This document shows positions 20,630 through 44,427 of a DNA stretch of 64,000 bases, one piece after another. A program made the translations under genes and the position numbers. The stretch is from a virus: the IMG/VR virus record IMGVR_UViG_3300034117_001294, positions 124,001 through 188,000 of that record; one strand, 5' to 3'. A model generated the notes under the pieces. It did no database searches, was not told the DNA's origin, and was given only the letters and a program-made list of their open reading frames with translations. The number at the start of each line of letters is the position of its first letter. Position 1 is the stretch's first letter.

Positions 20630-20756
20630 CGATATCTCCTTAAAAGTATTAACTCGATACTTTATTTACTATTACAGGAATTTCATTTAACACCCTTTGA
20701 GTAACTTAAAATAAATACTTGTAGAATACTACCTGCTGTTATTTTGACAGAATTTT

Positions 20757-20773
20757 ACCAGAATAAATATGGT
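20757..20773 (+). promoter_or_regulatory. Late-promoter-like box flanked by ACCA/TGGT
   Basis: ATAAATA lies at 20763-20769 between ACCA (20757-20760) and TGGT (20770-20773), 22 nt before the ATG of the giant fibre gene. AGAGGAAA serves as ribosome-binding site. A second ATAAATA stands near 20711. Both resemble the T4 late consensus TATAAATA. Confidence 0.5.
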
Positions 20774-20790: not shown

Positions 20791-23700
20791 ATGCCACTAA
20801 ATCAACAGATTATCAATATCGGTAGCGAACCAAACGATGGAACAGGCGACAGCGTCTATGCAGCTTTTCAGAAAGTTAACTCTAACTTTACAGACATCTA
20901 TACATTGTTAGGTTTTGGTGCTGGATTCAGCTTTTTAAGACTAAAGGAAGCTCCTAGCACATTAAGACCCAATGCTATTTTACAAGTTAACGCAGAAGGT
21001 AATAAATTTCTTAATAAAATTTTAGTAGCTGGCACAGGTATTAACATTGACTTTGTTACAAGTTCAACTGAAATCAGGATCGTTAATACTGCATCTAGCC
21101 TATCAAGTGATAAGAATCCAACACTAGCAGCAGACATCAGCGGTGAGAATGCATTTAGTATCATTAACATGGATAACACAGGTCCACATGCAGATTGGGA
21201 TGCAGTTAGTCGTAAGTGGGTTTATGAGAACTTTGTTAACCGTGACGGTATTACTAGATATGATAACACTAGTGTAAGTGAGAGCATATATGACGGAATG
21301 AGTACGATTCGGGATAATGTTGAATTATTAGTAAGTCCTACAAGTTCTACTCACATTGTTAACAAAGGATATGTTGACGAACTTGTTGACAACAGTGGTT
21401 TTGCAAGTCGCCAAAACTTCTTTGTTAGTTTAAGTGGTGACGATCATCAGTATTCTTTACCTAGCTATAAACGTGGGCGGGCCTTTGCCTATGCATTTAA
21501 AACTGTTAATCGTGCCGCAGAAGCAGCAGAACAATTTATTGCAGCAAGTCAAATTGTACTAGGACCGTACCAAAAAACTGTTTCGATGAGTAACGGCACA
21601 GCAAATCCTGTTGTTACTAACATAACCACTAGTACATTGCTAGACACTAGCTCTTTTGGTATCCGCTTAAGATTAACACTAGATCCAGCTAGTTTTAATA
21701 TTGGATCAGATCCCTTTATTAATAAAAGTATTTTCCCAGGAAACTACATCATTGGTGCAAGCAGTGAAGCAGTAGGTCTAGTTGAAGCTATTACACTCGA
21801 TGACGTGAATGGCTATGAATACTATGATATTACTCCAGTTGATTACGCTAAACCATATCGTATGGCAGTTGAACCAGAGCCGTTCAGCTATAATGCGTAT
21901 GTAACCAGTGGTGGTGAAATTACCGAAGTAGCGTTCTTATTAGACGTAGCAGACAGCATTGACATTCCAGATTTTTGGATTGGTTACAAATTTGTCATCA
22001 CTAATTCTAGTTACGGTGTCATAAGCTATGGATATATTTCTCGAATTATTCAAGAACTAGACGACGATCAAAACGTTAGAGACACTATTGTTGTTGAGTT
22101 TAGAGATGGTCTCGGATTACAAAATGGCGATGTTGTTGACTATGATAAGTGGCACGTCTATGCTGCCGACTTTGAATTAAACGAAGAGCTACAATGGGGC
22201 CAAAAACAGAACAAGAATCAATCTACTATTATGGTAGAGTCGGGTGAGCATAACGATCAATACCCAATTAAGGTTCCGGAAAACTGTTCTATCCGTGGTG
22301 ATGAATTCCGCCGAAGTGTTATTAAACCTGCACCTTTAGAAGGTACAAGACTTCCAGGTATTAGTAGTTCTAAATGGGCTAATACATACTTCTTTAGAGA
22401 TGCCCAAATTGACGGTATTATTGTAACACAATTAAACACTGCAACTGATTATGCAAGTGCAGCAGGTATTACTATCAGCTCAACTGATAATGACTCAGTT
22501 ACACAAACTGTTACTGTTACTGTAGATGCAGGAGTTGTTAGCACCAATTGGATTGGAAAGATTTTCAAAACTACCGGTGCAGTTTCTGCACAAGGTGAAG
22601 TTCGAGCCGTAAGTAGCAATACTTTTGCAGTTTCTCTAGCACAGAACGAAGTTAATTTTGAAAAGAGTGCTTACAATTATACAGTAGGCAATACTATTGC
22701 TTACGGTGCATGGCATATATATGAACCGTTCAAATACGGATATCATTACCTAAGAGATGCTAGTCGTCCAGTTAACACATTAACTACTCAGACTAACAGT
22801 GGTGGTTATAATAATGCCGGTTCTATTCTACTAGACAACCGAGAATTTATCAAAGCAGAATGTATTGGCTTCCTAAATGCTACATACCCTAGTTTTGTAT
22901 TTGATGAAGATAAATGTGCAAGAGACATCGGTATTATTGTTGATTCAATTGCATACGATTTAACTAACGGTGGAAATAATAGAACTATTAATGCAGGCGA
23001 TAGCTATCGAAATGTTGCAGTAGTTAAAGGATCCCAACTAGCAGAGACTGTTGCGGCTATTAACTATATTAACACTATTGGTCAACGAATTATTAAGAAT
23101 CAACAACCTGTTACTTCTTATCAAGCGGTCGAAGATCAAGTGTTCACTGACCCAGTTGGTGGTACACTAGTTAGTAGTGGGTCTGATTTAATCTTAGCAG
23201 ACTTAGTGCAGGCCTGCTCACGCATTGTCAACAACGATCCTGATTTTAATCCTCCCAAGTATAACGATCAAATGGATGTGTTCTTGATGAACGATGCAAC
23301 AATTAATCGATATATTAGTTGTCAAGGACACGGCGGCTTCATGAAAGTACTTGACCCAGACGGTCAAATTCTTGCCAAGTCCCCATATACTCAAACTGCT
23401 TCTAGCTTCTCTAAGAGCAAGAACAGGCACGTATTTGCAGGTGGTATGTTTATTGACGGATTCTCCGGCAATACTAAGATGACTCCTGCTAGCATTACTA
23501 CTGCATCAGGAACAGGCTATCCAGTAAGAATTAATTCAGCATTGACTACTGGCAGCATTGGACGTCCGAGTGTTGTGCCTGGTGAAGGATATATTCGTCC
23601 CCAAGTGCCTTGCTTCTTTGTTCATAGCGGTGTTACATACGAAGTCAGCTTTGTTAGTAACTTTAATCCAACAAACGGTACAGGTAGTTTAAACTTAAAT

Positions 23701-26700
23701 CCGTTACGTCCAGGTGGTATTGCCACTATTACTAATGCAGGAAACATTGCTACAGGATTTAAAGCTAACGCAGGAACAGTACCTGTAAGATTCAGTGCTC
23801 CGACACAGGCAGGTGGTCTAAATGCAACAGGTACTGCGGTGATTGGAGTTTCGGGTAATGTATCTAGTGTTTCTGTATCCTTCCCAGGATCAGGGTATAC
23901 AAACGGATTATTCACGTTCGGAACTACTCAAGGTTGCCCAAATATTGTTATTGGTGGTGCTCGAATTAGTTGGACTAGAAATAGTTCAGGTGCAATTACT
24001 GGTTACGAAATTATCGACGGTGGTGTTGGATACGCAGTTGGCACAGTTATTAATTTCCCAAGTTCCGGTGGTACAAGTGCTGCCGCAACAGTGGCCAGTG
24101 TAGACGGCAATGGTACAATTACTGCAATTACTATTGGAACAGCAGGCAGCGGCTATAATTCAGATCCGGCAGTAACATTTGGTACTGGGTTAGCATATGT
24201 GGCCACAGTTAAACCTGGATTCATTGTTACCGCAGCACATCCTTTACCAAGCGAGATCACATTAATCACAGCTGGTAATAGAAGTATGTTGGCTAACGAC
24301 TTCACACAGATCAACGACTTAGGCTACGGTATTTTTGCAACTAACGGCGGTTTAGTAGAAAACGTTTCCATGTTTACTTACTACTGCTATAGTGCGTACT
24401 ATTCTTTAAATGGTGCTCAATGTCGTAGTATTGCTGGTTCTACTTCCTACGGTCTAAATGGTCTTAAGTCAGAGGGGAGCGATCCAACAGAGGTTCCAAT
24501 TGCAGTTAGAAACAAACGTTCTACTAGCCAGATTGCCACAATTACCGCAGCAGGCACATACACAAACAAAGCTGAAGATGCAACCTTGTATGTAACTGGG
24601 TTGTCTTATGCACCTATTGCACAAAGTCAACTTGAAGTTAACCATAGTGGAACTGTTGTCCTTTATAATGTCAAGAGTGCAGTACAAGATACATTTGATA
24701 GTACCGTGTATTCTCTATCATTAGATGACGGGCAAGGACAGGGACTAAGGGCAGCTATTGCAAACGGTGAGAAAGCCACGTTACGCATATACTACAATCA
24801 AGAATTATTAGATGTAAATGCAGCAACATTAAGCCGTCCTAGTACTGTATTGACTTTAGACGAAGATCCAACATACGTATATCGTGTATTAAAATATTCA
24901 GACCTTGGCGGAGATACTGCACTTGCAGAAAGTGATACTCCTTACAACTATATTAACCTAACTCCGTGGACTGAGAGTAACGGTTTATACAGACAAGGCT
25001 TAGGCAAATTAACAATTACCAGCGGCGGTGCTGGATTTGGTTCGACTACCACAAACTATACTGCAACAATTCCTGCACCAAGTACCGCAGGAACTGCATC
25101 AGTTAATGGCACTGCAACAGATACTGATTTAATTACTATCAGTGGTGCAAGCGGCACTATAATGATAGGTAGTCGTGTAACTTTAACATCTGGTGGTGCT
25201 GATCCTAACGGTGCTGCAACTTATGTAACTTGGGTTAATTCTAGTTCTACACAGATTAGAGTTGACCGAACATGGACATGGCCTAACAGTACTGGCCTAA
25301 CATTCTCCGGAACACAGGCAGTTGGTTACGGCAAGGCTAACAGCAGTGGACAAATTTTTAAAGTTATTTTAACTAATCAGGGTGCAGGCTACGCCGGAAC
25401 CAGTGTTAGTAATATCACGATTACTGGAGGATCTGCCACAGCTACTGTAACAGCTTACCCAGATGGCGAAACTGGTAATAACAGGATCAAAGTTGTAGAC
25501 CTTGACGCAGATGATCAGGCAAGGATAGGTGCGGGATTAACTGCAAGTACTCCTTACTATTATATATTTGGTCATGCAGGTAATTTGTATAAAATTACAG
25601 ATTATATTAACAGCGACGAAACTTATAATGAATGGGGAGAAATTGTTGTTGAGAGAGTTAGTGATGGTGCTACATTACAACATCAAGTTTTGGCTACAGC
25701 ATTAAAAGCAGGTATTACATCTAATCAACCGGGTGATATTACTGTACGTATTTCTACAATGCGTGTTACCGGACACGACATGTTGAACGTAGGTACAGGA
25801 GGCTATGCTGACAGTAAGTATCCAAACGATTTATACGGCCCTCCAAGCAATCCTCCAGACTCGGCATTAGAAACTCAAGAGGTAGGAAAAGGTCGTGTAT
25901 ACTATGCCACTACTGACCAAGACGGTAACTTTAAAGTTGGTAAGTTCTTCAGCGTAGACCAAGGTCGCGGTACTGTGAGTATCAGTGCTCCGATTAGTTT
26001 AACTAACGTTGATGGCATTAGCTTTAAACGTGGGCAGACTCTTGTACAGGTGTTTAGCGTAGACGGTACGTTAGGCGGCAACAGTAATAACAGCGTTCCA
26101 ACTGAACGTGCTATACAAACATATGTTAATAGTAGATTAGGCCTAAACAGAAACAATACTACCGCAGGTGTCAGTCCAATCGGTAATGGATTCTTAGATC
26201 GTGGCGGCGTTTTAGAAATGCTCGATACTATCAAGATGGGCGACAACCGTATTGTTAATATGGCCGATCCAGCAGCTGATAAAGATGCTGTTAACAGACA
26301 ATGGGCTAACCTAAACTATATCAATACCAGTGGCGACACTATGGTAGGTACGTTAGTTACTCAAAAGTTAGAACCTAGTGCTAACTTAACATACGACATT
26401 GGTGAAAATGGCAAGCGATACGTTAATGTCTATGCGAACAGATTCCAAGGTACTGCAACTACTGCACAGAGCTTAGATGCTGCGGTAACTATTCAACTTA
26501 GCGGTGATGTTACTGGTAGTGCTAGTTTCTCTGGTGCAGGTGGTATCAACATTGTGACTACTATATCAAACAATAGTGTTGCATTAGGTACTGATACAAC
26601 TGGAGATTATGTATCTACTGGTGCAACTAGCGGATATGGTCTAAGCGGTAGCACAACAGGAGAAACTCAAACATTCACCGTTACTTCAAACGGTACAAGT

Positions 26701-27276
26701 TCTAATAGTGCAAGTACACTGGTCTTTAGAGACGGTAGTGGCAATTTTAGTGCAGGGACCGTTACTGCAACATTTAGCGGTAACATAACCGGTACTCCGA
26801 CTGTTCCGAGCATCACAAAGAGCGGCACTAACGGAACTGGCGACATTGGTCAAAGTGATAACTTGTTTGGAACAGTTTATGGCACTGCTTACTATGCAAA
26901 ATACGGTGACTTGGCAGAAAAATATTTGCCAGATGCACATTATGAGCCAGGTACTGTTGTAGTATTTGGCGGTGCAAAAGAAGTTACTGCTGCGGTAGAA
27001 TTCATGGACCGCAGGATCGCCGGCGTGGTTGCAACTAATCCGGCGTTCAAAATGAATGCCGAACTAGAAGGTGGCGTCTTTATTGCACTTACTGGTCGTG
27101 TTCCATGTAAAGTTGTAGGTAAAGTACGCAAAGGCGATATGTTAATTTCTAGTGGTGCTCCGGGTGTTGCAACTGCTGAAAAGAATCCTGCAATGGGTTC
27201 AGTAATTGGCAAAGCATTAGAAGATTATGATAGTCAAACAATTGGCGTCATTGAAGTTGTAGTAGGGAGAATTTAA
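20791..27276 (+). CDS. Giant tail-fibre/virion protein, 2161 aa
   Basis: The N-terminus IGSEPNDGTGDSVYAAFQKVNSNF is a short module also seen at the start of the next gene and likely serves attachment or trimerisation. The body is beta-rich. Two zones contain GxGY repeats (FPGSGYTNG, DGGVGYAVG, TAGSGYNSD, GGAGFGSTT, QGAGYAGTS), near residues 1030-1125 and 1410-1540. Other parts read like beta-helix and fibre shaft. The last 115 residues begin YYAKYGDLAEKYLPD and include [14 protein letters not shown]; a homologous domain ends the collagen-like protein at 30535, and resembles C-terminal (G2/chaperone-type) domains of phage appendages. It is preceded by a late-type promoter. Likely function: host recognition on the virion. 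Confidence 0.8.
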   Translation: MPLNQQIINIGSEPNDGTGDSVYAAFQKVNSNFTDIYTLLGFGAGFSFLRLKEAPSTLRPNAILQVNAEGNKFLNKILVAGTGINIDFVTSSTEIRIVNTASSLSSDKNPTLAADISGENAFSIINMDNTGPHADWDAVSRKWVYENFVNRDGITRYDNTSVSESIYDGMSTIRDNVELLVSPTSSTHIVNKGYVDELVDNSGFASRQNFFVSLSGDDHQYSLPSYKRGRAFAYAFKTVNRAAEAAEQFIAASQIVLGPYQKTVSMSNGTANPVVTNITTSTLLDTSSFGIRLRLTLDPASFNIGSDPFINKSIFPGNYIIGASSEAVGLVEAITLDDVNGYEYYDITPVDYAKPYRMAVEPEPFSYNAYVTSGGEITEVAFLLDVADSIDIPDFWIGYKFVITNSSYGVISYGYISRIIQELDDDQNVRDTIVVEFRDGLGLQNGDVVDYDKWHVYAADFELNEELQWGQKQNKNQSTIMVESGEHNDQYPIKVPENCSIRGDEFRRSVIKPAPLEGTRLPGISSSKWANTYFFRDAQIDGIIVTQLNTATDYASAAGITISSTDNDSVTQTVTVTVDAGVVSTNWIGKIFKTTGAVSAQGEVRAVSSNTFAVSLAQNEVNFEKSAYNYTVGNTIAYGAWHIYEPFKYGYHYLRDASRPVNTLTTQTNSGGYNNAGSILLDNREFIKAECIGFLNATYPSFVFDEDKCARDIGIIVDSIAYDLTNGGNNRTINAGDSYRNVAVVKGSQLAETVAAINYINTIGQRIIKNQQPVTSYQAVEDQVFTDPVGGTLVSSGSDLILADLVQACSRIVNNDPDFNPPKYNDQMDVFLMNDATINRYISCQGHGGFMKVLDPDGQILAKSPYTQTASSFSKSKNRHVFAGGMFIDGFSGNTKMTPASITTASGTGYPVRINSALTTGSIGRPSVVPGEGYIRPQVPCFFVHSGVTYEVSFVSNFNPTNGTGSLNLNPLRPGGIATITNAGNIATGFKANAGTVPVRFSAPTQAGGLNATGTAVIGVSGNVSSVSVSFPGSGYTNGLFTFGTTQGCPNIVIGGARISWTRNSSGAITGYEIIDGGVGYAVGTVINFPSSGGTSAAATVASVDGNGTITAITIGTAGSGYNSDPAVTFGTGLAYVATVKPGFIVTAAHPLPSEITLITAGNRSMLANDFTQINDLGYGIFATNGGLVENVSMFTYYCYSAYYSLNGAQCRSIAGSTSYGLNGLKSEGSDPTEVPIAVRNKRSTSQIATITAAGTYTNKAEDATLYVTGLSYAPIAQSQLEVNHSGTVVLYNVKSAVQDTFDSTVYSLSLDDGQGQGLRAAIANGEKATLRIYYNQELLDVNAATLSRPSTVLTLDEDPTYVYRVLKYSDLGGDTALAESDTPYNYINLTPWTESNGLYRQGLGKLTITSGGAGFGSTTTNYTATIPAPSTAGTASVNGTATDTDLITISGASGTIMIGSRVTLTSGGADPNGAATYVTWVNSSSTQIRVDRTWTWPNSTGLTFSGTQAVGYGKANSSGQIFKVILTNQGAGYAGTSVSNITITGGSATATVTAYPDGETGNNRIKVVDLDADDQARIGAGLTASTPYYYIFGHAGNLYKITDYINSDETYNEWGEIVVERVSDGATLQHQVLATALKAGITSNQPGDITVRISTMRVTGHDMLNVGTGGYADSKYPNDLYGPPSNPPDSALETQEVGKGRVYYATTDQDGNFKVGKFFSVDQGRGTVSISAPISLTNVDGISFKRGQTLVQVFSVDGTLGGNSNNSVPTERAIQTYVNSRLGLNRNNTTAGVSPIGNGFLDRGGVLEMLDTIKMGDNRIVNMADPAADKDAVNRQWANLNYINTSGDTMVGTLVTQKLEPSANLTYDIGENGKRYVNVYANRFQGTATTAQSLDAAVTIQLSGDVTGSASFSGAGGINIVTTISNNSVALGTDTTGDYVSTGATSGYGLSGSTTGETQTFTVTSNGTSSNSASTLVFRDGSGNFSAGTVTATFSGNITGTPTVPSITKSGTNGTGDIGQSDNLFGTVYGTAYYAKYGDLAEKYLPDAHYEPGTVVVFGGAKEVTAAVEFMDRRIAGVVATNPAFKMNAELEGGVFIALTGRVPCKVVGKVRKGDMLISSGAPGVATAEKNPAMGSVIGKALEDYDSQTIGVIEVVVGRI

Positions 27277-27800
27277 TGGCATTACAATACATCAACACTG
27301 GAACAAGTGCAAACAAAGGAGACGGTGATAGTCTCCGAGTAGCATTCCACAAAATTAATCAAAACTTTTCACAAGTTCAAAGTTCCAGTACGTCATCTGT
27401 TGTTATCAGCGATAGTGGTGAAGTGCCTGCAATTGAACTACAATCATTTGGTGGCACATTTACCTTACCGGGCGACAACTCTACGGCTGTGCAACTTTTT
27501 GAATTTGATAAAAGAATATATAGAGGTGCTAGCATAGATATTCTAGCAGAGAACCAAACTACTGATACACAGGATTCCGGAAGTAGCTATATGGTAACCT
27601 GGAATAGCACTACCAGTCATGTGTTAGGTACAGGAATTGTGAGCTTATTTGAAAACGGTAGCACCAATAATGCCAACTGGGACATTGTAGATACATCAAT
27701 CTATGACAATCGAGTGAGAGTACAGGCCTATAATGTTTCCGGACTAACTGCTACTAATGTAATTTCTTGGCGTGCTCAAGTAAGTTTGTTTAGGTTATAA
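27276..27800 (+). CDS. Virion fibre-associated protein, 174 aa
   Basis: It starts in the stop codon of the giant fibre gene (TAATG). The N-terminus YINTGTSANKGDGDSLRVAFHKINQNF repeats the module that starts the giant fibre protein (GTGDSVYAAFQKVNSNF), so both probably plug into similar sites. The rest is a beta sandwich-like domain (FTLPGDNSTAVQLFEFDKR...WRAQVSLFRL). No enzymatic motif is present. Confidence 0.65.
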   Translation: MALQYINTGTSANKGDGDSLRVAFHKINQNFSQVQSSSTSSVVISDSGEVPAIELQSFGGTFTLPGDNSTAVQLFEFDKRIYRGASIDILAENQTTDTQDSGSSYMVTWNSTTSHVLGTGIVSLFENGSTNNANWDIVDTSIYDNRVRVQAYNVSGLTATNVISWRAQVSLFRL

Positions 27801-27801
27801 T

Positions 27802-30531
27802 ATGACAGCACCAGTATGGATTACCAATGCGGGGTTCCTGGGCACGTTAACAGAACGAACTGCTATTAATATACCATTTTCAGTTGAAGGCACTGGATCT
27901 ACATTCAGTGTTATAAGCGGGAAGCTTCCGGACGGAATGGTTTTACAATTAGTAACTACTGCTACGTCGACTACTACAACTGGGTTTATTATTGGAAACC
28001 CTATGAGCGTGCCTTCTACAATTAGAAGTCAATTTGTAGTTCGTGCAAAAAATGCACAGGGTGTAGCTGACCGTACGTTTTCAGTAGATGTAACTAGCAA
28101 TCAAGATCCAGTATGGGTAACTCCTAGCGGATTCCTAGCAGTAGGAACCAGTGGTGAGTGTTTTGCAGTAAACGAACATATTGTAGATTATCAATTGTCT
28201 GCTGTAGCTAATGTCTTGTTTGAAAATATGAAACTAAGATATTACATTGCAGACGGAGACGGGCAACTACCCAAAGGGATTAAATTAACTGAAGACGGTA
28301 GATTAACTGGCGTTATTGATGAAATAACTGTGCAAGAAGAGCCGGTTGGAGTTTCAGGCAACGGATACGACACTGAAAAATATGACCGTTATCCGTATGA
28401 TAGTGCTTTCATTATTGAAAATAAAACTAATCGTCCAAAATACATTAAGAAAATTTATCAATTCTATGTAACTGCCACTGACAGTTTTAATAGCAGTCGT
28501 AAATTATTTAAATTGCAAGTTGTTGATGTAAACAGCTTACGTGCAGACACTGGGTATATTTCAGCAGATGCAAGATGTTTTCAAGCAGGCGACAGTTACT
28601 TGTATGCACCTGCTTGGCTAAGTCCGGCGAACTTGGGTATTCGTCGTGCCGCGAACTATCAAATTGTTAGAATACAAACATATGATCCGCACCCTGAACT
28701 AGGTGCAGTTAATTGGATCTGGGATAATATTAGTGTAAATCCGGAAGTACGAGCTATTGCTGATACTCAGTACAATACAGGACCAAGTGGCTTACCTGTA
28801 ACTGTAAGAGGTGTAGTTGATACGTTTGCTGAGTTACCGTTAGTTAATACCATCGGTGATTTGTACAATGTAGTAGATGAAACTGTTAGCTATGTGTGGA
28901 ACGGAACGGATTGGGAAAGTGCAGACTTCTTACCTAAGTATAACCGTGCTGGTATGAGTGAGGTGCATTTAAAGAGCTTGTCTAGCTTGCCTCAAGTTGG
29001 ACAATTGCTTAGATTGGACACATATGTGCCCGATGCAATATACGATACTACTTATACAATCAGTTCAGTGACAGGAACTACTTCAACTTGTGTAGTTGGT
29101 ATTAAACATAGTCCAGTACTTGTAGGCGATACGGTAGTATATGACACTACACTAAGAGACGACATTCCAGATAATACTATTCTATTCGTTGGAAGTGAGA
29201 GTCAAAAGCCGCCCGGATTTAATTTAAATGAAACGTCTGGAGACCTATACGGACAAATTCCGTACATACCTGCATATAGTGAAGATTACAAATTTACTAT
29301 TAGGATGATTAAAACTGATCCTAAGACCGGAGATCAAAGTAAAAGCGATAGAGTATTTCAATTAAGACTACAAGGCAGTGTAAACACTGATTTACAATGG
29401 ATTACTACCTCTACCGTAGGAACAATTGCAGCAGGATATCAAAGTGAGCTATCAGTAGTAGCACAACATGAAAATTTACCCGACTTAGGAATTCAATACA
29501 GATTTGTACAAGGTGAATTACCTGCAGGTTTAGAATTTAAGAATGACGGAAGTATTGTGGGGAAAATTCCTTATGGTGGAACTACTGAAGTTGATTACTA
29601 CCAACCTACAGAATTTACCATCGATGGTGGCGGAACTACATTTGACCGTGCATATACGTTTACAGTAGAAGCTACTAATGCCTATCGACTGGCAACAATT
29701 GATCAAGAGTTTACAATTCTTATTGGAGACAACGATCCAACTCCGTTTAGCAGCGTGTACATGAGACCGTTCATGGCACGACATAGAAGAAAAGTCTATA
29801 GAGATTTTATTAACAATAGAGATGTATTCGATCCAAAGGTATTATACCGACCATCGGATCCAGCATTCGGGCTACAAAAAGATATTCGAATGACTTTAGA
29901 GTACGGCATTGAGCGATTAAACTTAGCTGAATACGTTTTAGGGCTACAGAATTATTTCTACAATAAGAGATTCTATTTTGGAGATGTCAAGACAATTCCT
30001 GCAGAAGACGCTCAAGGAAATTATGTTTACGACTTTGTCTACGTTGACATTATTGACAGCCAAAGTAATACATTAGGGAAAAGTCCGGATAATATCAGTT
30101 TCTTGATTAATCAGGGACTGGTTAATTTATACAGTAATAGCGTTGAAAACTGGCAAAAGAGTCTAGAAAGCGTTCAAATATACGGCGAAACTATTAAAGT
30201 AGACGAATATTTACGTCCTAGATTTATGAGTACTATTCAACAGGCAACTGGAGCACCTTTAGGATTTATTAAAGCGATGCCAATTTGTTATGCATTACCC
30301 GGCGAAGGCTATAAAATTAAAAGAAAGATTGAGCTTAATGGATTTGACTTTAAGTTAATTGATTTCGAAGTTGATAGATTAATTATTGATCAAACACTAG
30401 ATTACAGTGGCGATAAATATCTCAAGTTCCCAATTAAGAATGTTGATGATGTACAACCATTAAATGTGCTGGCTGGTCCAGACGGTATCATTATTACTGA
30501 CTCTGATGGAAACGCACTACTAGTTGAATAA
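27802..30531 (+). CDS. Virion protein with Ig-like (He_PIG-type) repeats, 909 aa
   Basis: At least four copies of a cadherin/He_PIG-like repeat are visible: GKLPDGMVL near residue 45, DGQLPKGIKL...DGRLTGVI near 155, KPPGFNL...SGDLYGQIP near 475, and GELPAGLEF...DGSIVGKIP near 575, each a LPxG(l/f)xL strand turn followed by G.(L/I).G. Between them lie beta domains. The C-terminal third is more helical (FINNRDVFDPKVLYRP, MTLEYGIERLNLAEYVLG) and may dock to a baseplate or fibre partner. The layout is that of a surface-binding virion protein in late marine T4-like operons. Confidence 0.7.
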   Translation: MTAPVWITNAGFLGTLTERTAINIPFSVEGTGSTFSVISGKLPDGMVLQLVTTATSTTTTGFIIGNPMSVPSTIRSQFVVRAKNAQGVADRTFSVDVTSNQDPVWVTPSGFLAVGTSGECFAVNEHIVDYQLSAVANVLFENMKLRYYIADGDGQLPKGIKLTEDGRLTGVIDEITVQEEPVGVSGNGYDTEKYDRYPYDSAFIIENKTNRPKYIKKIYQFYVTATDSFNSSRKLFKLQVVDVNSLRADTGYISADARCFQAGDSYLYAPAWLSPANLGIRRAANYQIVRIQTYDPHPELGAVNWIWDNISVNPEVRAIADTQYNTGPSGLPVTVRGVVDTFAELPLVNTIGDLYNVVDETVSYVWNGTDWESADFLPKYNRAGMSEVHLKSLSSLPQVGQLLRLDTYVPDAIYDTTYTISSVTGTTSTCVVGIKHSPVLVGDTVVYDTTLRDDIPDNTILFVGSESQKPPGFNLNETSGDLYGQIPYIPAYSEDYKFTIRMIKTDPKTGDQSKSDRVFQLRLQGSVNTDLQWITTSTVGTIAAGYQSELSVVAQHENLPDLGIQYRFVQGELPAGLEFKNDGSIVGKIPYGGTTEVDYYQPTEFTIDGGGTTFDRAYTFTVEATNAYRLATIDQEFTILIGDNDPTPFSSVYMRPFMARHRRKVYRDFINNRDVFDPKVLYRPSDPAFGLQKDIRMTLEYGIERLNLAEYVLGLQNYFYNKRFYFGDVKTIPAEDAQGNYVYDFVYVDIIDSQSNTLGKSPDNISFLINQGLVNLYSNSVENWQKSLESVQIYGETIKVDEYLRPRFMSTIQQATGAPLGFIKAMPICYALPGEGYKIKRKIELNGFDFKLIDFEVDRLIIDQTLDYSGDKYLKFPIKNVDDVQPLNVLAGPDGIIITDSDGNALLVE

Positions 30532-30534
30532 AAG

Positions 30535-33072
30535 ATGAGCACAATAAGTAATTTACCACCGTTAAACACACTAACCAATGCTGTTCTGATACCAGTAGCG
30601 GATACTTCTACCAGACAAACATACTATGTAACTGTAGAAACATTAGGAACATTTTTTAGTAGAGAAACTGCGGTAGGTGCTAGCGGAGCCACTGGACCGA
30701 TTGGTCTACGAGGTGCCACAGGCAGCGGATCAACTGGTGCTACGGGGCAAGGTGGTTCAACTGGATCTACTGGTCCAAAAGGTGATATTGGCTATCCCGG
30801 AGGAACTGGTGCTACTGGTCCGCAAGGTATCCCAGGTACTGCTGCATTTATGGGTGCAACTGGTGCAACCGGAAGTCAAGGGCCTGCTGGTAGTGCAGGT
30901 GCTACAGGTAGTGCAGGTGCTACTGGTAGCGGTGCTACTGGTTCTACAGGTGCCCAAGGTGCAACCGGTGAACAAGGTGCAACCGGTCTCCAGGGTATTC
31001 CCGGAATAGCAGCATTCCAAGGCGGTACTGGTTCCACTGGTCAACAAGGTATTCCCGGCCAAGGCGGTACAGGTGCAACTGGTGCTCAAGGATCAACAGG
31101 TTCTACAGGACCCCAAGGTGCTACTGGTATTGCTGGAACATTTGCAGGTCAAGGCGGTACGGGTTCAACTGGACCAATTGGTTCAACTGGTGCTACAGGC
31201 GAAGGTGCTACAGGTGCAACAGGGGAAATTGGTCAGCCATTTGTTATTGATGCTGTAGGGTATTGGCCAACTCCGTACGACGAACGAAGTCAATATGATG
31301 ATCGTCCGTTTGGTTTTGCATTTTTAGAACTAGGTACCGGAACATTATACATTAAACAAAACGGAGATGGTAACTGGAGTGCAGGTGCACCATTTGGCGG
31401 TGCAGGTGCAACTGGTGCTACTGGACAAGGAACTACAGGTGCAACTGGTATAGGCAGTCCGGGTGCTACTGGACCAGTTGGCGGAACTGGGGCTACTGGC
31501 AATTTTGGTGCAACTGGTGCTACTGGCATTCAAGGACCGACTGGCGACTTAGGTACAACAGGTGCAACTGGTCCGTTAGGATCAACAGGTGCTACAGGTA
31601 ACTTTGGTGCTACTGGTGCTACCGGACTCCGAGGTGCTACAGGTGCAACTGGTCCGCAAGGATCAACTGGATTAGGTGCTACAGGTGCAACCGGAGCAGA
31701 CGGTGCTACCGGTCCAGACGGTGCTACTGGTTCAACTGGACCAATTGGCGGTGACGGTGCTACCGGTGCAACTGGTATTCAAGGCGAGTTAGGCTCAACT
31801 GGTGCTACAGGCATTGGTTCAACTGGTGCCACAGGTGCTACTGGTAACCAAGGAGAGCCGGGTGCTACAGGTGCTACAGGACAAGGTGCTACAGGTGCAA
31901 CAGGTGCCATTGGAGCAACAGGTGCAACAGGTGCTACTGGATTACAAGGCAGCACAGGTGCAACTGGCCCGTTAGGAACTACAGGTGCAACCGGTGCAAC
32001 CGGTGCTACTGGTCCTGCAGGTGCTACTGGTTCAGAAGGTCCAAGTATACCGGGAACTACAGGTGCGACAGGTGCGACAGGGCCGGCTGGGGCTACCGGA
32101 GCAGTCGGTTTACAAGGCAGTGAAGGAGCATCTGGTGCTACTGGTGCAACTGGTCCTCAAGGCAAATATATTACCACTGCTACATTAACTTCTAGCAATA
32201 CAATAATTGAATTTACATTAAGCGATGCTTCCGTAATAAGTGTTGGTCCAATAACCGGTGCTACTGGTCCTAGTGGGGCTACAGGTGCAACTGGAGCAGA
32301 AGGTGTAATGGGTGCTACTGGTGCTACTGGAATAGGATCAACAGGTGCGACCGGAGCAACTGGTGCAACTGGATCAATGGGAGCAACTGGTCCACAAGGA
32401 GATATCGGACTTCCAGGAAGTACAGGATCAACTGGTTTGTGGGGGTCTACTGGGCCTGCTGGATATGATGGTGCCACAGGTGCCACAGGTGCTCAAGGAT
32501 CATCGGGTGCAACTGGTGCTCAAGGATCAACTGGTGCCACTGGATTAACTGGTGCTACTGGTTCGAGTAATGCACAGGCCGCAGCTTTAGAAATTGTGCC
32601 TTATGCAGGCGGATTTACATACTATGCTAAAGGATATGAAGATAATATTACTGCTACTATTGTTGCAAGAGATGACCTAGGTGATATTAGAGGATCGTTC
32701 TTTAGAGGAACTGCTACTGTTGCAGTGTATGCTGACTTGGCAGAAAAATATCTAACAGACCGAGAATACTCAGTCGGTACTGTGATGACAGTTGGTGGCA
32801 TTGCAGAAGTTACCGCGGTAACAACTAGTGACTGTTATGTTATCGGTGTAGTCTCCGGTAAGCCTGCATATATGATGAATAGTGAATTAGAAGGCGGAAC
32901 ATATATTGCGTTAACTGGTCGTGTACCAGTTAAAGTAGAAGGGTACGTGTTAAAAGGCGAACCTATTTGGCCGTACATGGATGGCAAAGGCAGTACAACT
33001 AGCAATGGCCGACAACCATTTGCATTTGCATTAGAAAACGGTTCAGGCATTGTGGAGTGTTTAGTTAAATGA
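30535..33072 (+). CDS. Collagen-like fibre protein 1, 845 aa
   Basis: The N-terminal anchor [18 protein letters not shown], nearly the same as in the next gene, is followed by long Gly-X-Y runs dominated by Gly-Ala-Thr, interrupted by globular inserts near residues 235-285 and 545-575. Collagen-like triple helices give phage fibres a stiff trimeric shaft. The last 110 residues ([25 protein letters not shown]) match the C-terminal domain of the giant fibre protein at 20791. The repetitive DNA is prone to slippage and recombination. Confidence 0.85.
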
Positions 33073-35430
33073 GTACCATTAGTAATCTACCCGTTATTGG
33101 TTCAATAACAACGGCAACTAGTATGCCTGTTGCTGACGGCAACCTAACTAAACAGATGACTGTAGGGCAGTTAGGCGAATTCATTAATAATGAATTAGTC
33201 ACATTCAATGTGTCAACGGCAACTACTAGCACTATTGGCGGAATTAAAATTGGCGATGGTTTAAATATTGACCAAGAAGGATTTTTAAATGTAACAACTG
33301 TTGCTACTACTGCAACTACTTCTACTCTAGGAACAATTATAGTAGGCGACGGTTTAGAAATTGTTGAAGGTGTAGTCAATGTAGTTTCAATGGGTGCAAC
33401 TGGTGCTCGGGGTGCAACTGGCACTAGAGGATCGACTGGTGCAACTGGTCCTAGACTGACCGCAGTAATTTCAACTTCAAGACCATCGGTGGCAGCGGCT
33501 GGGGACATGTGGCTTGATACTCAAGAAACAGGACAACTGTTTACTTACAACGGTTCTGTTTGGGTATCAGCAAGTCCTGGTGGTGCTGTTGGAGAAACGG
33601 GAGCAACTGGTTCAGTCGGTGCTACGGGTGCAACTGGGTATCAGGGTGCCACCGGTGCTACCGGATTTACTGGCGGGCCAGGTGCTACAGGCTTAACCGG
33701 TGCAACTGGTGCCCAAGGCATTCCTGGCACATTTGCAGGTCAAGGGTCTACTGGTGCAAGCGGATTGCCGGGCGTAGACGGTGCAACTGGTGCAACTGGT
33801 AGTGGTAGCACAGGTGCAACCGGAGTTGGTTTCATTCCTTTGTATTCTCAAACTACTGCAACTATCAGTTTAAACACTGTAACTTTCGTAACTCATTTAT
33901 CGTCTAGTACTGTAGCGTATACAGTAAGTTCTAGAGTAAGGGCTACTGCGGACGCTGATATTTTATCAAACTTTGACGGCATTGTTGAAAGTTTTATTGG
34001 AGATCAGCTCACTATTAGACCGTTAACTAGCTTTGGTGCAGGAACATTCCAAGCATGGACTATAACATTAGTCGGCGGACAAGGTGCTAGAGGTTCTACA
34101 GGACCGGATGGTGCTACCGGAGCAACGGGTATTGGATCTACTGGTGCTACCGGTGCTACTGGACCTCAAGGTGCTACTGGTGCAGGTGCTACAGGTGCTC
34201 AGGGAGAAATTGGATCTACTGGTGCTACCGGTGCTACTGGACTTCAAGGGGCAACAGGTAGTGGTAGTACAGGTGCTACAGGAAATATTGGATCAACTGG
34301 TGCTACAGGTGCTACAGGTGCAACTGGGCCAGTTGGTTCAACAGGTGCTACAGGTGCTACAGGTGCTACTGGTCCTCAAGGTGCTACTGGGCCCCAAGGC
34401 ATTCCTGGAACGTTTGCAGGTCAAGGAGCAACAGGTGCTCAGGGAGAAATTGGATCTACTGGTGCAACTGGATTGCAAGGCGGCACAGGTTCTACTGGAC
34501 CTCAAGGATCTGAAGGAAATATTGGTGCTACTGGTGCTCAGGGATCAACTGGTGCAACCGGAGCAGGTGCAACTGGAGCGACAGGTGCTATTGGAGCAAC
34601 AGGTGCTACTGGTGCTACTGGTCCAGCAGGTGCTACAGGATCTGGTGCTACAGGTGCAACCGGTGCACAGGGTGCTACAGGCCCACAGGGACAAAACGGT
34701 GCCACCGGTCAAGGTGCTTCAGGTTCAACTGGACCGCAAGGTGATCAAGGATCAACAGGAGCAACCGGATTAACAGGTTCAACTGGTCTGGGTGCCACAG
34801 GTTCAACTGGTGCAACTGGATTCATCGGTGCTACAGGTGCCGTTGGTGAGTTCGGTAGTACAGGTGCTACAGGTATTCAAGGCACTACCGGAGCGTTTGG
34901 AGCAACAGGTGCTACAGGACCGACTGGAACTAGAGGATCAACAGGGGCTACTGGCCCAGCAGGTGCTACTGGTAGTGGTTCTACCGGTGCTACAGGTGCA
35001 GCCGGACAGTTTGGGTCTACTGGGGCTACAGGGCAATGGGGATCTACTGGTGCTACTGGTCTATGGGGATCTACTGGTGCCACTGGTCCAACAGGATCAA
35101 CTGGACCTGGATACCTACAACTAATTTCTACATCAACTACCTTAGTTATAACTACCAGTACTTCGACTTTTGTATTTCAAGTTGATAAAGCATACGGAAC
35201 TAATGCGTATACAACATCAACTCGTGTTCGTGCAGTGGCATTTACCAGTACTGCATTTAGCACAGTTATTGACGGCTACGTTGAATGGTATACTGGCACT
35301 AATATAGGTATTGCTCCATATACCATTAACGGGCCGGGAACATTTAAAGATTGGTCTATTAGTCTTACTGGTGCAAGAGGATTTCAAGGATTTACAGGTG
35401 CCACTGGTCCTGCTGGTGCAACAGGTGCAA
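30680..35430 (+). repeat. Collagen-coding DNA repeats (GGTGCTACTGGTGCAAC-type)
   Basis: Hundreds of 9-bp units such as GGTGC(T/A)AC(T/A) encode Gly-Ala-Thr runs at about 30680-31225, 31390-32160, 32250-32560, 33585-33830 and 34080-35105, with a further block at 36150-36560. The pattern is protein-driven and in frame, with synonymous variation between units. Confidence 0.9.
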
Positions 35431-36017
35431 TTGCAAATCCATTAAGTAGCGTCTTTACAATTACAAATACTACCAGTGCAACTTCAACAAACTCTGGTGC
35501 TCTACAAGTTGTAGGTGGTGCTGGCATTGGCGGAAACTTACATGTTGGCGGAAATATTTCAGTCAATAATAGTCAGGCTGTAAACGGCCCTGCATTCTCA
35601 GTTTATCCAGACTCGGGAGTAACGCAGACAATTACTTCTGGAACACAACAAAAAGTGTTGTTCCAACTTGAAGATTTTGACACTAATGGAAATTTTGCCA
35701 GTTCAAGATTTACGCCCACTGTTGCAGGTTATTATCAACTAAATGCCGCAGTTCGCATAAGCGGTACTATGGGTACTGGTGAAAGCATGTTAGTTATTTG
35801 GAAAAATGGATCAGAGTATAAGCGTGGTTGGAATGCAAGTGGCACAGAAGTAGGTGCTAGTTTCTTTAGCATGGGCGTAAGCACTATAGCTTATGCTAAC
35901 GGAACTGGAGATTATTTTGAAGTCTATATTCAACAGACTAGCGGCAGCAGTAAAGATATTACCGTTGCTGGCGGAAACATTACATGGTTTAACGGCTGCA
36001 TGATGCGTGGTGCGTAA
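33069..36017 (+). CDS. Collagen-like fibre protein 2 with C-terminal C1q-like domain, 982 aa
   Basis: It begins in the stop of fibre protein 1 (ATGA). The anchor [18 protein letters not shown] is shared with it. Gly-Ala-Thr collagen blocks alternate with globular inserts; two inserts are related to each other ([14 protein letters not shown]... and [15 protein letters not shown]..., each ending GxGTFxxWxI(T/S)L(V/T)G). The last 135 residues fit a C1q/TNF-type jelly roll: [56 protein letters not shown]. The C1q head would form the trimeric tip that binds the cell surface, the same architecture as animal C1q and adiponectin. Confidence 0.85.
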
Positions 36018-36038
36018 TTAGAAATATAGGAATACACA

Positions 36039-36872
36039 ATGGCAATTCAATTTCCATCAAGCCCGATAGCTGGTCAAGTTTACACTTACAACGGCAGTCT
36101 TTGGGTTTATAACAGCACATCAACAGCATGGGTTGCAGGCCCATTACCTAGAGGTGCCACAGGTGCAACTGGTATGCCGGGTGCCACAGGTCCTAGAGGA
36201 TTAGACGGAACTGTAGCGTTTGCAGGTGCTACTGGTGCAACTGGGCAAAGTGGATCAACAGGACCGGGTGGTGCTACCGGATTGCAAGGAATCCCCGGAA
36301 CTGCGGCAGCACAGGGCAGCACAGGTGCTACTGGCCCTCAAGGGGCAACCGGACCACAAGGAGCTACTGGTCAAGGTGCCACAGGTGCTACGGGTGCAAT
36401 TGGTTCGTCCGGTGCTACTGGTACTGGCAATGACGGTTCTACTGGTGCTACTGGTCTAAGAGGGGCAACAGGTGCTACTGGTATTACTGGTGCAACGGGT
36501 CAAATAGGCCTAACTGGCTCAACTGGACTAACTGGTGCAACAGGTAATCTAGGAGCAACTGGGGCTGTTACAGTAGTGGGCAATACTTACACTGTGCAGA
36601 CTCTTTACATCTCAACGCTAACTGTTACCGGAGTAAGCACTGCTGCAACTATTCAATCAGGCAACGATCTTAATTTACGGGCTGCTGGACAAATTACTGT
36701 TAACAGTCCTTTTGTATTAACTACTGCAACTACTGCACAATTATCTGCGTTAGGTGCAATTACACGACAAGGTGCAATACTTTATGTAGTAGATGCTGCG
36801 GGCGGTGGGCAACCTTGTTTCTATGACGGAGCCAATTGGAGACTATTCACTGATAGAACAGTGATATCGTAA
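36039..36872 (+). CDS. Short collagen-like fibre protein 3, 277 aa
   Basis: The N-terminus [30 protein letters not shown] is a module known from phage fibres (the FPxxPxxGQ.yT.nG..W.yn...W pattern). About 45 Gly-X-Y triplets follow, and the last 95 residues are a beta/helical end domain ([37 protein letters not shown]), again typical of fibre ends. Likely a shorter trimeric fibre or adaptor co-expressed with the two longer collagen-like proteins. Confidence 0.8.
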
Positions 36873-36875
36873 GGA

Positions 36876-38450
36876 ATGTCAATGTTACGAAAATATTATG
36901 TCGTAGTTGAAAATCCAAATGACAAGCCCGGCGTTCATGCAGATTTGACTACGGATTATTCAGACGAAGCCATTCCAGAACGTGCCGTAGAAATCATTAA
37001 CCCAATGCTGCACAGTGAGCACAATTCTACTGTGATGCTAACTGACGAAGAAGCGGCGGCACTGATGTCCGATCTTAGGATCAAAGAAGTTCATAGAGAT
37101 CCTGTTGAAATGGGCGTTAAGAAAAGAACAACAGGTATTAGAACTGGTGTTTTTAACAAATCAGTTGAGCCTTTTCAGACTTCAAAAAATTGGGGTTTGA
37201 TTAGATGCCTAAGCACAGTGACTAATTTTCCAACAGGGTTTGGGTCTAGTACTGGTCCATTTACTTTTAATCTAAATGGTTCAGGAGTTGATATAATTAT
37301 TATCGATACAGGTGTCGAGCCTAACCATCCAGAATTTGCAGTTAATGCAGACGGTACTGGAGGTAGCAGAGTTGTAGATTACGACTGGACACAGCACGGA
37401 ATTATTACATCTGCACCCACAGGCGGGTTCTTAGGGGACTGCGATGGACATGGCAGCAACTGTGCCAGCATTGCGGCAGGCAATACACAGGGTTGGGCAC
37501 CGGGTGCAAATATCTATAGTCTACGTTCAGTTGGTTCAGGTGCGGCAACAGAATACGATATAACAGATGGCAGAGAATTAGGACTGTTAGATGACTTTGA
37601 AGTTTGGCAAACTATCAGAGCATTTCATGTAGCTAAGTCTGTAGATCCCACAACTGGTTACAAGAGACCTACTATTGTTAATTGCAGTTTTGGTTTCTTT
37701 TATAGCTACACAAGAGTAACAGGTATTAGATATCGTAGTACTAACTATGCCGTATCAACTACTACTGCGGCATACGGAACTATCGGAATTCCCGAAGGTG
37801 GCATAGGTGTACACGGATATTTCTATCCTGCATTAAATGCTGAAATAGAAAGTTGTATCAATGCCGGAGTTATTGTAGTAGCTGCTGCCGGTAACGATCG
37901 TCATAAAATTGATGTCAGCGGTGGTCTCGATTATAACAACTATTGGACTGAATATACGGGCTTTACTTATTATTACCATAGAGGATCAACTCCTGCAGGT
38001 ACTAATGGAGTAATCTGTGTCGGTGCAATTGCAGCCTATGCAACTGCTGCGGTTAATCCCGAACATAAACGAGATTTTAGCTGCACAGGACCCGGGGTAG
38101 ATATATGGGCCCCAGGAGATTATATTATGGGTGCATATGCAAATAGTGCATATGCATATCCTGCGGTAGCGGATCCTAGAAATTCTAATTACTATCTAAA
38201 TGCCGTATCCGGAACCAGTCAAGCATGTCCACAGGTAGTGGGTGTATTGGCCAATGTGTTACAGGCAAGACCACAGATGACTCAACAACAGTGTTTAAAT
38301 TGGACAACTTCTACAGGCAGCACATGGAAAGTTAACGAAAGTTATTACGGCGGTTCTGGCTACACTAACTGGGGCAGCTTACAAGGTGGCTCAGCTAAAG
38401 CATTGTATCAGGTTTTTAATTCTGCAACACCCCTCACAATCTTCGGATAA
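36876..38450 (+). CDS. Subtilisin-like serine protease (S8 family)
   Basis: A 524-aa protein with all S8 catalytic segments: IIIIDTGVEPNHPEF with Asp144, DCDGHGSNCASIAAG with His192, AAAGNDR with the oxyanion Asn340, and VSGTSQACPQVVGV with Ser448. The first 110 residues look like a pro-region or a docking domain; no signal peptide is seen. It lies 3 nt after a fibre gene in the late virion operon, so it is probably carried on the particle, where it could cut host surface proteins or process the fibres. The C-terminus is short after the Ser motif. Family assignment is firm; location is inferred from context. Confidence 0.88.
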   Translation: MSMLRKYYVVVENPNDKPGVHADLTTDYSDEAIPERAVEIINPMLHSEHNSTVMLTDEEAAALMSDLRIKEVHRDPVEMGVKKRTTGIRTGVFNKSVEPFQTSKNWGLIRCLSTVTNFPTGFGSSTGPFTFNLNGSGVDIIIIDTGVEPNHPEFAVNADGTGGSRVVDYDWTQHGIITSAPTGGFLGDCDGHGSNCASIAAGNTQGWAPGANIYSLRSVGSGAATEYDITDGRELGLLDDFEVWQTIRAFHVAKSVDPTTGYKRPTIVNCSFGFFYSYTRVTGIRYRSTNYAVSTTTAAYGTIGIPEGGIGVHGYFYPALNAEIESCINAGVIVVAAAGNDRHKIDVSGGLDYNNYWTEYTGFTYYYHRGSTPAGTNGVICVGAIAAYATAAVNPEHKRDFSCTGPGVDIWAPGDYIMGAYANSAYAYPAVADPRNSNYYLNAVSGTSQACPQVVGVLANVLQARPQMTQQQCLNWTTSTGSTWKVNESYYGGSGYTNWGSLQGGSAKALYQVFNSATPLTIFG

Positions 38451-38453
38451 ATA
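38446..38453 (+). promoter_or_regulatory. Late-promoter-like box
   Basis: GATAAATA (38446-38453) overlaps the protease stop codon and lies 25 nt before the ATG at 38478; it matches the T4 late consensus TATAAATA except for the first base. AGAGAG precedes the ATG. Confidence 0.5.
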
Positions 38454-38477: not shown

Positions 38478-39056
38478 ATGTCAAGCACCGTAACCAATTT
38501 TAGTAACAATATCAATGTTTTATATCCTGTGCCAGGAGTAGATAACGATACTCAGGGATTTCGAGATAACTTTGCCAGCATCAAAAATGCACTGCAATCT
38601 GCGGCCCAAGAATTAACTCAACTAGAATTAACTTCTGTAAAACTAAACGATGTAAATGACTACGGATACGAAGGCAGCATATATCGAGGAGTGCTCAAAG
38701 CAACAGGTATTGCAGGAACAGTTATTGATGACATATCATCAAGTACTCAAATAAACTATCAACTAGGTGGATATCATAAAGTTACTGTAGACGGTGCTGC
38801 AACCTTAACAGTGATCAACTGGCCATCTGATAGCAACATATATTCAACAGTAAGGTTTGAAATCTTAAACGCAACTACGTTAACAGGAACTATCAGTTTT
38901 ACACAAGGTAGTAATGTGTTAAAGAAGGAAGCAAGTTTAACATTACCGCACGTTTTAGGAACTAATACAGAAGTATCTCACATATTTGAAATGTCAACTG
39001 CTGATGCAGGAGACACTGTATTCATAAAGTTTATCGGCACATATACTAATGTTTAA
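38478..39056 (+). CDS. Virion-associated beta-rich protein, 192 aa
   Basis: The N-terminal segment VPGVDNDTQGFRDNFASIKNAL is the GDxxxxxRxNFxxIxxAL-type start of several proteins in this block (compare the GDSLRVAFHKINQNF module of the gene at 27276). The remainder is a single beta domain (NYQLGGYHKVTVDGAATLTVINWP). It probably decorates or links fibres. It overlaps the next gene by 8 nt. Confidence 0.6.
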   Translation: MSSTVTNFSNNINVLYPVPGVDNDTQGFRDNFASIKNALQSAAQELTQLELTSVKLNDVNDYGYEGSIYRGVLKATGIAGTVIDDISSSTQINYQLGGYHKVTVDGAATLTVINWPSDSNIYSTVRFEILNATTLTGTISFTQGSNVLKKEASLTLPHVLGTNTEVSHIFEMSTADAGDTVFIKFIGTYTNV

Positions 39057-39308: not shown

Positions 39309-39833
39309 ATGAGATCTGACAACTACGGACAGTTAATATTAAACACAGACGATGCATTTAAGGCATTGTATTCTGGTAAAATCAAAAGTCTTGATAAGAT
39401 TTTATTTGACGATACCGCAGAAATTAAACAATTCAATGCTGCCGTCAAGGAAAACTTTGAACATACTGCCCTTTTAAAGATTTACCAACAACCTGCAGAT
39501 GTTGATTCTGTAGAGCTATTTGACAAAACTAATCAAAGTAATTGGTTTATGCCCGACAATTACTGCCCGGATTTGATACAACAAATTTACGGAATGTGCA
39601 AAACTGACGAACAAAGAGATAGAGTAAGTTCAGAACTAGAACTGTTTATTCAGCATGGCATGCTGGACCTATTGTATTACCTTAAATACTTGGTAGACAC
39701 TATGCGTGAACATCAACTAATTTGGGGTGTAGGCAGAGGCAGTAGTGTGGCCAGTTATGTGCTGTACCTAATAGGTATCCATAAAGTAGATAGTATCAAA
39801 TACAAACTCGATATACATGAGTTTTTAAAATAA
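39309..39833 (+). CDS. DNA polymerase III alpha (DnaE)-like fragment, 174 aa
   Basis: The C-terminal 45 residues read WGVGRGSSVASYVLYLIGIHKVDSIKYKLDIHEFL. This matches the start of the catalytic palm of bacterial DnaE (GRGSxAxSLVAYxLxITxxDPIxYxLLFERFL), the helix and loop that bind incoming nucleotide. The catalytic aspartates that follow in real DnaE (PDxDxDF) are absent because the protein stops there. The N-terminal 125 residues are helical and could represent the preceding linker. It is either a remnant or a small protein that has kept this element for another use. It lies in the block with gp31-like and MazG. Confidence 0.65.
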   Translation: MRSDNYGQLILNTDDAFKALYSGKIKSLDKILFDDTAEIKQFNAAVKENFEHTALLKIYQQPADVDSVELFDKTNQSNWFMPDNYCPDLIQQIYGMCKTDEQRDRVSSELELFIQHGMLDLLYYLKYLVDTMREHQLIWGVGRGSSVASYVLYLIGIHKVDSIKYKLDIHEFLK

Positions 39834-44005: not shown

Positions 44006-44427
44006 TGAACTACGGTGCAGCAATAGCGTCGGCAAAATACGCAGAAGAAACAGATGTAGAGTACAGAATCGAATCTGCACTACAAAAAAAGAAAGTTAAA
44101 AAGCCAGGATTCTTTTCTCGATGGCTCATGAAGAAGTTGGTAGAAGGTGCCGATTTTGAAAAGCGTCAGAATCAAGAACGTGAATCAGCACAGAAAATAA
44201 GTCGATTATCTGGTTCTTTAATTAGTGTAGGCCCTCCAAATATTGATCAGCCAGAACGTGCAATTCAATTCACTGTGTATAATGCTAATGGTGGTAGAGT
44301 TATTGAGACACGCCGCTATGACAAGAAGACAGACCGCAATACAAACGGTTTGTACGTCATTAACAACGATGCAGATTTTGGTAAAGAGATTGATAAGATT
44401 ATTACTATGGAACATTTAAAATCATGA
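44005..44427 (+). CDS. Hypothetical protein, 140 aa
   Basis: Unrecognised. A helical basic N-terminus (IESALQKKKVKKPGFFSRWLMKKLVEGAD) is followed by a beta-domain (RAIQFTVYNANGGRVIETRRYDKKTDR...LYVINNDADFGKEIDKIITME). It is coupled by a 4-nt overlap to the clamp-loader gene, the usual neighbour of this protein type in marine T4-like phages as far as I recall, so a link with replication is possible. Confidence 0.55.
   Translation: MNYGAAIASAKYAEETDVEYRIESALQKKKVKKPGFFSRWLMKKLVEGADFEKRQNQERESAQKISRLSGSLISVGPPNIDQPERAIQFTVYNANGGRVIETRRYDKKTDRNTNGLYVINNDADFGKEIDKIITMEHLKS

Follow-up and report, generated by a model that had tools for sequence, protein, structure and literature searches.

On the plus strand of the viral window analysed here (64,000 nucleotides, taken from a record of 228,849 bases), a run of genes at 20791–38450 begins with a 2161-aa fibre protein, continues through a 174-aa protein, a 909-aa protein and three collagen-like fibre proteins, and ends with a subtilisin-like (S8) protease (Table 1). 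A PHROG 677 N-terminus is seen on the 174-aa protein, and one scan also placed it on the 2161-aa fibre (E 6.3e-13), a match absent from the whole-protein scan. The collagen-like fibre directly upstream of the protease matches the PHROG 3449 tail collar N-terminus. A phrog_22593 domain with a DLAEKYL-type motif is conserved at the C-terminal ends of two fibres, the 2161-aa protein and the 845-aa collagen-like one. Just past the operon, 39309–39833 encodes a 174-aa protein matching Pfam DNA_pol3_alpha (E 1.3e-12; bacterial DNA polymerase III alpha) and also phrog_11127, a profile just 171 long. Elsewhere in the window lie a PhoH-like gene that runs against its neighbours (45425–46165, minus strand), a 771-aa protein matching an ATP-dependent protease family (51659–53974; phrog_4871, E 4.2e-244), and a 1602-aa protein (55542–60350) whose matches are of the endolysin and internal virion lysozyme type (phrog_7, phrog_2083).

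Table 1. Features of the protease locus, in window coordinates; the promoter boxes and the pro-domain are predictions
Feature	Position	Strand	Remarks
Two ATAAATA boxes, candidate late promoters of the run	20711..20717, 20763..20769	+	ahead of ORF 20791
2161-aa fibre protein, first gene of the run	20791..27276	+	tail-fibre PHROGs 9851 and 5342
174-aa protein with PHROG 677 (baseplate wedge/tail fibre connector) N-terminus	27276..27800	+	phrog_677 E 6.4e-6 / 4.5e-7
909-aa protein	27802..30531	+	homologue fused to S8 domain in Phosso 119 and Atu_ph07 gp329
Collagen-like fibre protein, 845 aa	30535..33072	+	Pfam Collagen E 1.1e-53
Collagen-like fibre protein, 982 aa	33069..36017	+	Pfam Collagen E 7.5e-47
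Collagen-like fibre protein, 277 aa, directly upstream of protease	36039..36872	+	Pfam Collagen E 7.8e-18
S8 (subtilisin/proteinase K-like) protease gene, PHROG 9158, 522 aa	36882..38450	+	likelier start; alternative start 36876
Predicted I9-type pro-domain, residues 1–76 of 522	36882..37109	+	beta-alpha-beta-beta-alpha-beta; AlphaFold2 model
Peptidase_S8 catalytic domain	37278..38312	+	Pfam residues 133–477 of 522; structure match keratinase 5wsl
Asp144 codon	37305..37307	+	D in 99/99 aligned rows; residue numbering from 36876
His192 codon	37449..37451	+	H in 99/99 aligned rows; residue numbering from 36876
Oxyanion Asn340 codon	37893..37895	+	N in 99/99 aligned rows; residue numbering from 36876
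Nucleophile Ser448 codon	38217..38219	+	S in 99/99 aligned rows; residue numbering from 36876
ATAAATA box overlapping protease stop	38447..38453	+	ahead of ORF 38478
192-aa protein after protease	38478..39056	+	homologue starts the gene following the S8 fusion in Phosso

The protease ORF, first called at 36876–38450 (+) with 524 aa, has the only S8 match in the whole record (Pfam PF00082, Peptidase_S8; E 2.5e-27, 96.4 bits where the curated cut-off is 21.8, residues 135–479 of 524). An earlier note on this DNA had placed it 3 nt behind the collagen ORF, which holds for a start at ATG 36876. A Shine-Dalgarno-like AAGGA (36871–36875) abuts that ATG and lies 6 nt upstream of a second one at 36882, and the ATG of three relatives (L007, L008, L011) is the residue aligned with 36882. 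Because of this 6-nt spacing and the ATG placement in the relatives, 36882 is the likelier start, giving a predicted protein of 522 aa that begins 9 nt past the stop of the collagen fibre ORF. The note's reading that the protein lacks a signal peptide is borne out by hydrophobicity: within the first 45 residues, the top 15-residue window averages just 0.37 on the Kyte-Doolittle scale.

The active site is complete, again as the note had it, with D144 in IIIDTGVEP, H192 in CDGHGSN, N340 in AAAGNDR and S448 in SGTSQACP. All four residues are kept in each of 99 aligned rows, comprising the window protein, five close loci, 13 isolates and 80 further loci, with near-duplicates included (L048, L064, L090, L094 and L104, as well as L031, a copy of the window gene, and L032, a copy of L007). 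One of the two patterns used to retrieve relatives surrounds Ser448, so that S448 was partly selected for; D144, H192 and N340 were not. Identity to the window protease spans 27–93% in alignment A1 and 33–60% in alignment A2, in which all 58 members have a Pfam S8 match. The ORF encodes a Peptidase_S8 protein with canonical active-site motifs, and chance is excluded. In a comparison with its relative L006, dN is 0.042 and dS 0.588; judged from these substitution rates, the protein is an enzyme under constraint, subject to purifying selection. We predict with high confidence that it is an active subtilase. Its His-to-Asn spacing is 148 residues, with family-specific conserved positions in between, compared with 91 residues in subtilisin BPN'.

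By structure prediction, the catalytic domain resembles a known branch of subtilases. An AlphaFold2 model of the full-length protease, built with 58 natural sequences, reached a pLDDT of 91.2 and a pTM of 0.85. Compared by VIA-align, the modelled catalytic domain matched keratinase 5wsl at Z 37.8 (rmsd 2.2 over 279 aligned residues) and proteinase K relatives at Z 35–37; across the proteinase K/keratinase branch as a whole (5wsl, 2prk, aqualysin 4dzt), Z was 35–38 and rmsd 2.0–2.2. The window protease is thus predicted to have a subtilisin-like catalytic fold of proteinase K type. Among viral models, the six best were two cyanophage S8 proteins, a lectin-annotated protein of an uncultured phage, the S-SCSM1 protein, an S-CAM1 protein annotated as ‘putative proximal tail fiber protein’, and the Atu_ph07 protease.

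The model also points to a pro-domain that the first reading of the sequence had overlooked. The N-terminal 76 residues fold as beta-alpha-beta-beta-alpha-beta both within the full model and when modelled alone (pLDDT 78.7 alone). Foldseek comparison of this domain with the PDB gave pro-subtilisin chains as its two top rows (E 0.052 and 0.059) and no row at E 0.001 or better. Each of the 18 best VIA-align rows (Z 8.7 to 6.9) was a subtilase pro-domain, a subtilase that was whole or unprocessed, or the related inhibitor POIA1; the first unrelated row, NapD at Z 6.8, tied with the lower I9 rows, so that even Z 8.7 is little above the level that unrelated folds reach. Pfam I9 (PF05922) gave a hint in two of the 58 members (best E 0.056) and no match in the window protein; a search for I9 with a profile against PDB sequences was discarded, its one row being unrelated (E 0.61). 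With Z 8.7 and Foldseek E 0.052 as the best values, we assign residues 1–76 to an I9-type pro-domain with moderate confidence. The I9-type pro-domain predicted here would be shared with the secreted subtilases of the proteinase K/keratinase branch; unlike those enzymes, the window protease has no signal peptide and is phage-encoded. A pro-domain kept in a protein without a signal peptide would suggest a folding aid and a lock in the producing cell.

Late control of the protease operon, also claimed in the earlier note, is plausible from the placement of promoter-like boxes. ATAAATA, which we take to be the core of T4-type late promoters, occurs in the window in eight copies, all on the plus strand (17337, 20711, 20763, 30413, 38447, 46250, 48980 and 60610), and seven of these end 6–100 nt upstream of the starts of ORFs of at least 120 aa; the copy at 30413 is intragenic. 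Two boxes precede the first gene of the run, in keeping with the claim, but the total of eight falls below a chance mean of 20.0. We set aside full TATAAATA boxes as support for late promoters; they too are rarer than chance, with one in the window against 5.4 expected.

The protease belongs to a widespread family. It matches PHROG 9158 at E 1.6e-66 over residues 3–503, and an alignment-based scan of IMG/VR found at least 577 stretches encoding a relative, of which 80 loci were kept. A genome scan, from which 79 loci were kept, had contigs from metagenome bins as its best seven (L111–L117, E 5e-29 or lower); its remaining loci matched at E 4e-17 or weaker, mostly across the S8 domain. When 45 of the 99 rows were placed in a tree, the window protease lay within a clade made up of 24 uncultivated rows (support 90/88). 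The cyanophage proteins called ‘subtilisin-like serine protease’ (S-H38, S-CREM1, S-RSM4 and P-SSM2 T4-GC 292) belong to the same PHROG 9158 family, the S-H38 protein being 34.5% identical to the window protease over 96%. Cyanophage S8 proteins share with it the tetrad, a conserved N-terminal region and a place beside fibre or structural genes; a collagen fibre as the upstream partner is common to the window and P-SSM2 but not found in most isolates examined. Photosystem PF00124, sought as a cyanophage sign, had no match in the record, which is possibly incomplete, and the Pfam capsid marker Gp23 had no match in either the record or the controls. The clamp loader at 44424–45347 is 57% identical to that of PA5oct-like Pseudomonas jumbo phages, a comparison of one gene only. 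Together, the cyanophage members and this clamp loader suggest that T4-like cyanophages share the protease family with what appears to be at least one further lineage of jumbo phages.

Across this family the protease is linked to tail genes by place or by fusion. From the 80 IMG/VR loci we obtained 67 upstream partners (alignment A3, in which the window gene represents its near-identical copy L031). Thirteen loci were left out: four had no upstream ORF (L054, L073, L108, L109), five were near-duplicates (L048, L064, L090, L094, L104), and in four the ORF was short or overlapped by about 50 nt (L035, L039, L066, L102). Start codons at these loci were assigned by a script preferring ATG, a nearby Shine-Dalgarno sequence and closeness to the match; alignment A4 holds 49 of the 58 A2 rows, nine with doubtful starts having been removed by eye. 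In 58 of 67 cases the partner stops between −25 and +15 nt from the protease start, and in 23 it stops exactly 1 nt away, a closeness that is partly built in, since the upstream ORF was chosen as the longest one with its end between −60 and +250 nt. When a single simple gene caller was applied to both sets, close spacing was seen in 41 of 49 S8 pairs versus 145 of 285 other pairs at the same loci, where short intergenic gaps are frequent in general.

The identity of the partners points to the tail. By PHROG, 20 of the 67 match family 677 (baseplate wedge/fibre connector) and 29 match family 9627; by Pfam, 16 match collagen, leaving 51 without it, and eight match T4_gp9_10_N. Long G-x-x runs occur in 18 of the 67 partners; among the upstream genes of other pairs at these loci, the count is 15 of 285. 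One of the 67 itself has a Peptidase_S8 match, showing that tandem S8 genes occur. Among annotated isolate records, a directly adjacent gene is annotated as a fibre, tail, baseplate or virion/structural protein in 12 of 13, and in the S-T4 isolate such genes sit a few places from the protease gene.

Fusions tie the enzyme to tail or surface modules within single proteins. In the 1411-aa S-SCSM1 homologue, Laminin_G_3 lectin domains lie C-terminal to S8. The serine motif was present as scripted in 74 of the 80 loci, and 13 of these have a C-terminal extension of more than 200 residues; nine of the 13 were scanned in Pfam, and two, L033 and L061, carry a YHYH domain behind S8. L033 is a close relative of the window protease, both by identity (54%) and in the tree. 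According to the available text of a jumbo-phage review, YHYH is predicted to be a tail-associated hydrolase domain, frequently fused to tail/baseplate or lectin domains (PMC7824862).

A third kind of fusion mirrors the operon described here. Atu_ph07 gp329 and Phosso 119, both in PHROG 3677 (protease), have S8 motifs matching those of the window protease, their S8 domains being just 25–26% identical to it. In each, the S8 domain is followed in one chain of 1251–1287 aa by a homologue of the 909-aa window protein (25.0 and 25.8% identity; E 4e-8 and 9e-10 in the phage collection), whereas in the window the two are encoded separately, with three collagen genes lying between them. Moreover, the gene after each fusion starts with a homologue of ORF 38478 (Phosso, E 9e-7; Atu_ph07, by local comparison among four proteins). 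Neither phage is among the 39 records found by tblastn with the window protease; their kinship to the window rests on PHROG 3677, the 909-aa protein and local comparison.

Two relatives come with particle data. ORF228, the S-SCSM1 homologue, bears a ‘virion protein’ tag in its GenBank record, and mass spectrometry of CsCl-purified S-SCSM1 detected 45 proteins according to the available text of the paper, against 48 tagged features by our count (PMC9602691). ORF91, ORF213 and ORF214, which the paper names, are all tagged in the record; the main text of the paper, as available, does not mention the S8 protein by name (PMC9602691). The virion peptides may derive from the lectin part alone. For Atu_ph07, the available text places virion-protein clusters at CDS 31–76, 170–215 and 284–329, and does not name gp329 in its main part (PMC6102473). 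By numbering matched through gp327, a tail fibre, gp329 is the last gene of the third cluster. The window protease itself showed no recognisable particle-binding domain. The earlier note had proposed that the protease is virion-borne, and the fibre and baseplate linkage, the lectin, YHYH and fibre-operon fusions, the S-SCSM1 tag and the gp329 cluster all support this indirectly. The window protease is probably part of the virion.

Combining these observations, we lean towards a tail-borne, pro-domain-gated protease that would cut host surface proteins. The protein would be made late and without a signal peptide; its I9-type pro-domain would aid folding and hold it latent in the producing cell; and it would be assembled beside the fibre encoded just upstream, as a minor component of the tail fibre or baseplate. 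In the particle, it would trim the host surface (outer-membrane proteins, S-layer, pili or slime protein), letting the fibres reach their receptor. We infer its presence in this virion, its latency, its self-cleavage and its host-surface substrate. On balance, host surface proteins would be the main substrate, with fibre maturation making up most of the remainder. T4 gp21-type prohead proteases (Pfam S77) are also phage enzymes tied to the virion, yet differ in fold and place, and tail-spike depolymerases, likewise virion-tied, act on sugars where protein is expected here.

Alternatively, the protease could mature the fibres, cutting its collagen-like or other fibre neighbours during assembly with no action on the host required, a reading we consider rather unlikely. 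The gene sits directly behind a fibre gene, long G-x-x runs are over-represented among the partners, and the phrog_22593 C-terminal domain common to two operon fibres is possibly a removable folding chaperone. However, the partners vary, and no constant fibre substrate is therefore seen; the fusions to lectin, YHYH and structural proteins tie the enzyme instead to surface and structural modules. Moreover, 33 Synechococcus phage records have S8 against 376 with a clamp-loader match, counts drawn from redundant records in which more divergent S8 genes may be missed, and such a patchy distribution suits an obligatory assembly step poorly. The processing of collagen fibres suggested in the earlier note is thus weakly supported: collagen-like partners are indeed commoner next to the protease, but most partners lack a Pfam collagen match.

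Less probable still is an intracellular protease whose targets, late in infection, are proteins of the host or the phage, and which lies among fibre genes by chance or timing. Intracellular subtilisins exist, and both the missing signal peptide and the late-type boxes upstream would fit one, but throughout a diverse family the gene stays next to fibre or structural genes, and the structural fusions and particle data in relatives argue against it. A dead or non-catalytic subtilase fold used structurally is very improbable: enzyme folds are known to serve in virions without catalysis, but here the tetrad is invariant down to the lowest identities aligned, dN is far below dS, and the N-terminal domain is retained in the 49 members aligned across it.

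The literature searched annotates this kind of protease without describing its function, and the window protein is a new member. Judged by titles and abstract openings, none of the papers listed in our searches describes a virion-borne phage S8 protease. Sullivan 2010, in its available text, names an S8 peptidase in two cyanophages, function not given (PMC3037559). For other phages, the available text on S-CREM1 reports 14 virion proteins by mass spectrometry, with neither ‘peptidase’ nor ‘protease’ in its main text (PMC9964418); that on S-CREM2 mentions a prohead protease as its sole protease (PMC10665884); and that on Sinorhizobium phage AP-J-162 names one peptidase, gp289 (PMC11242549). In the text available, the jumbo-phage review contains neither ‘subtilisin’ nor ‘subtilase’ (PMC7824862), and ‘subtilisin’ in two further papers, which we set aside, denotes a tail-sheath domain (PMC12796325, PMC9004378).

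To our knowledge, the enzymes with which phages open their way to the cell break down sugars or peptidoglycan. We tentatively propose, as a possibility less likely than not, that tailed phages also deploy widespread ‘protein depolymerases’: pro-domain-locked, proteinase K-like enzymes that would sit beside exchangeable fibres (collagen, lectin, YHYH, gp9/10-anchored) and digest host surface proteins on contact, much as tail spikes digest capsule sugar. Until assembly or contact, the latent pro-form would spare both the cell that makes it and the fibres of the phage itself from attack. Relatives are available in phages of cultured Synechococcus, Prochlorococcus and Agrobacterium, which makes the question directly testable. 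If true, a tail-borne protease family with a complete active site and a pro-domain, matched in at least 577 viral stretches, would mean that many phages also cut surface protein, which bears on their host range.
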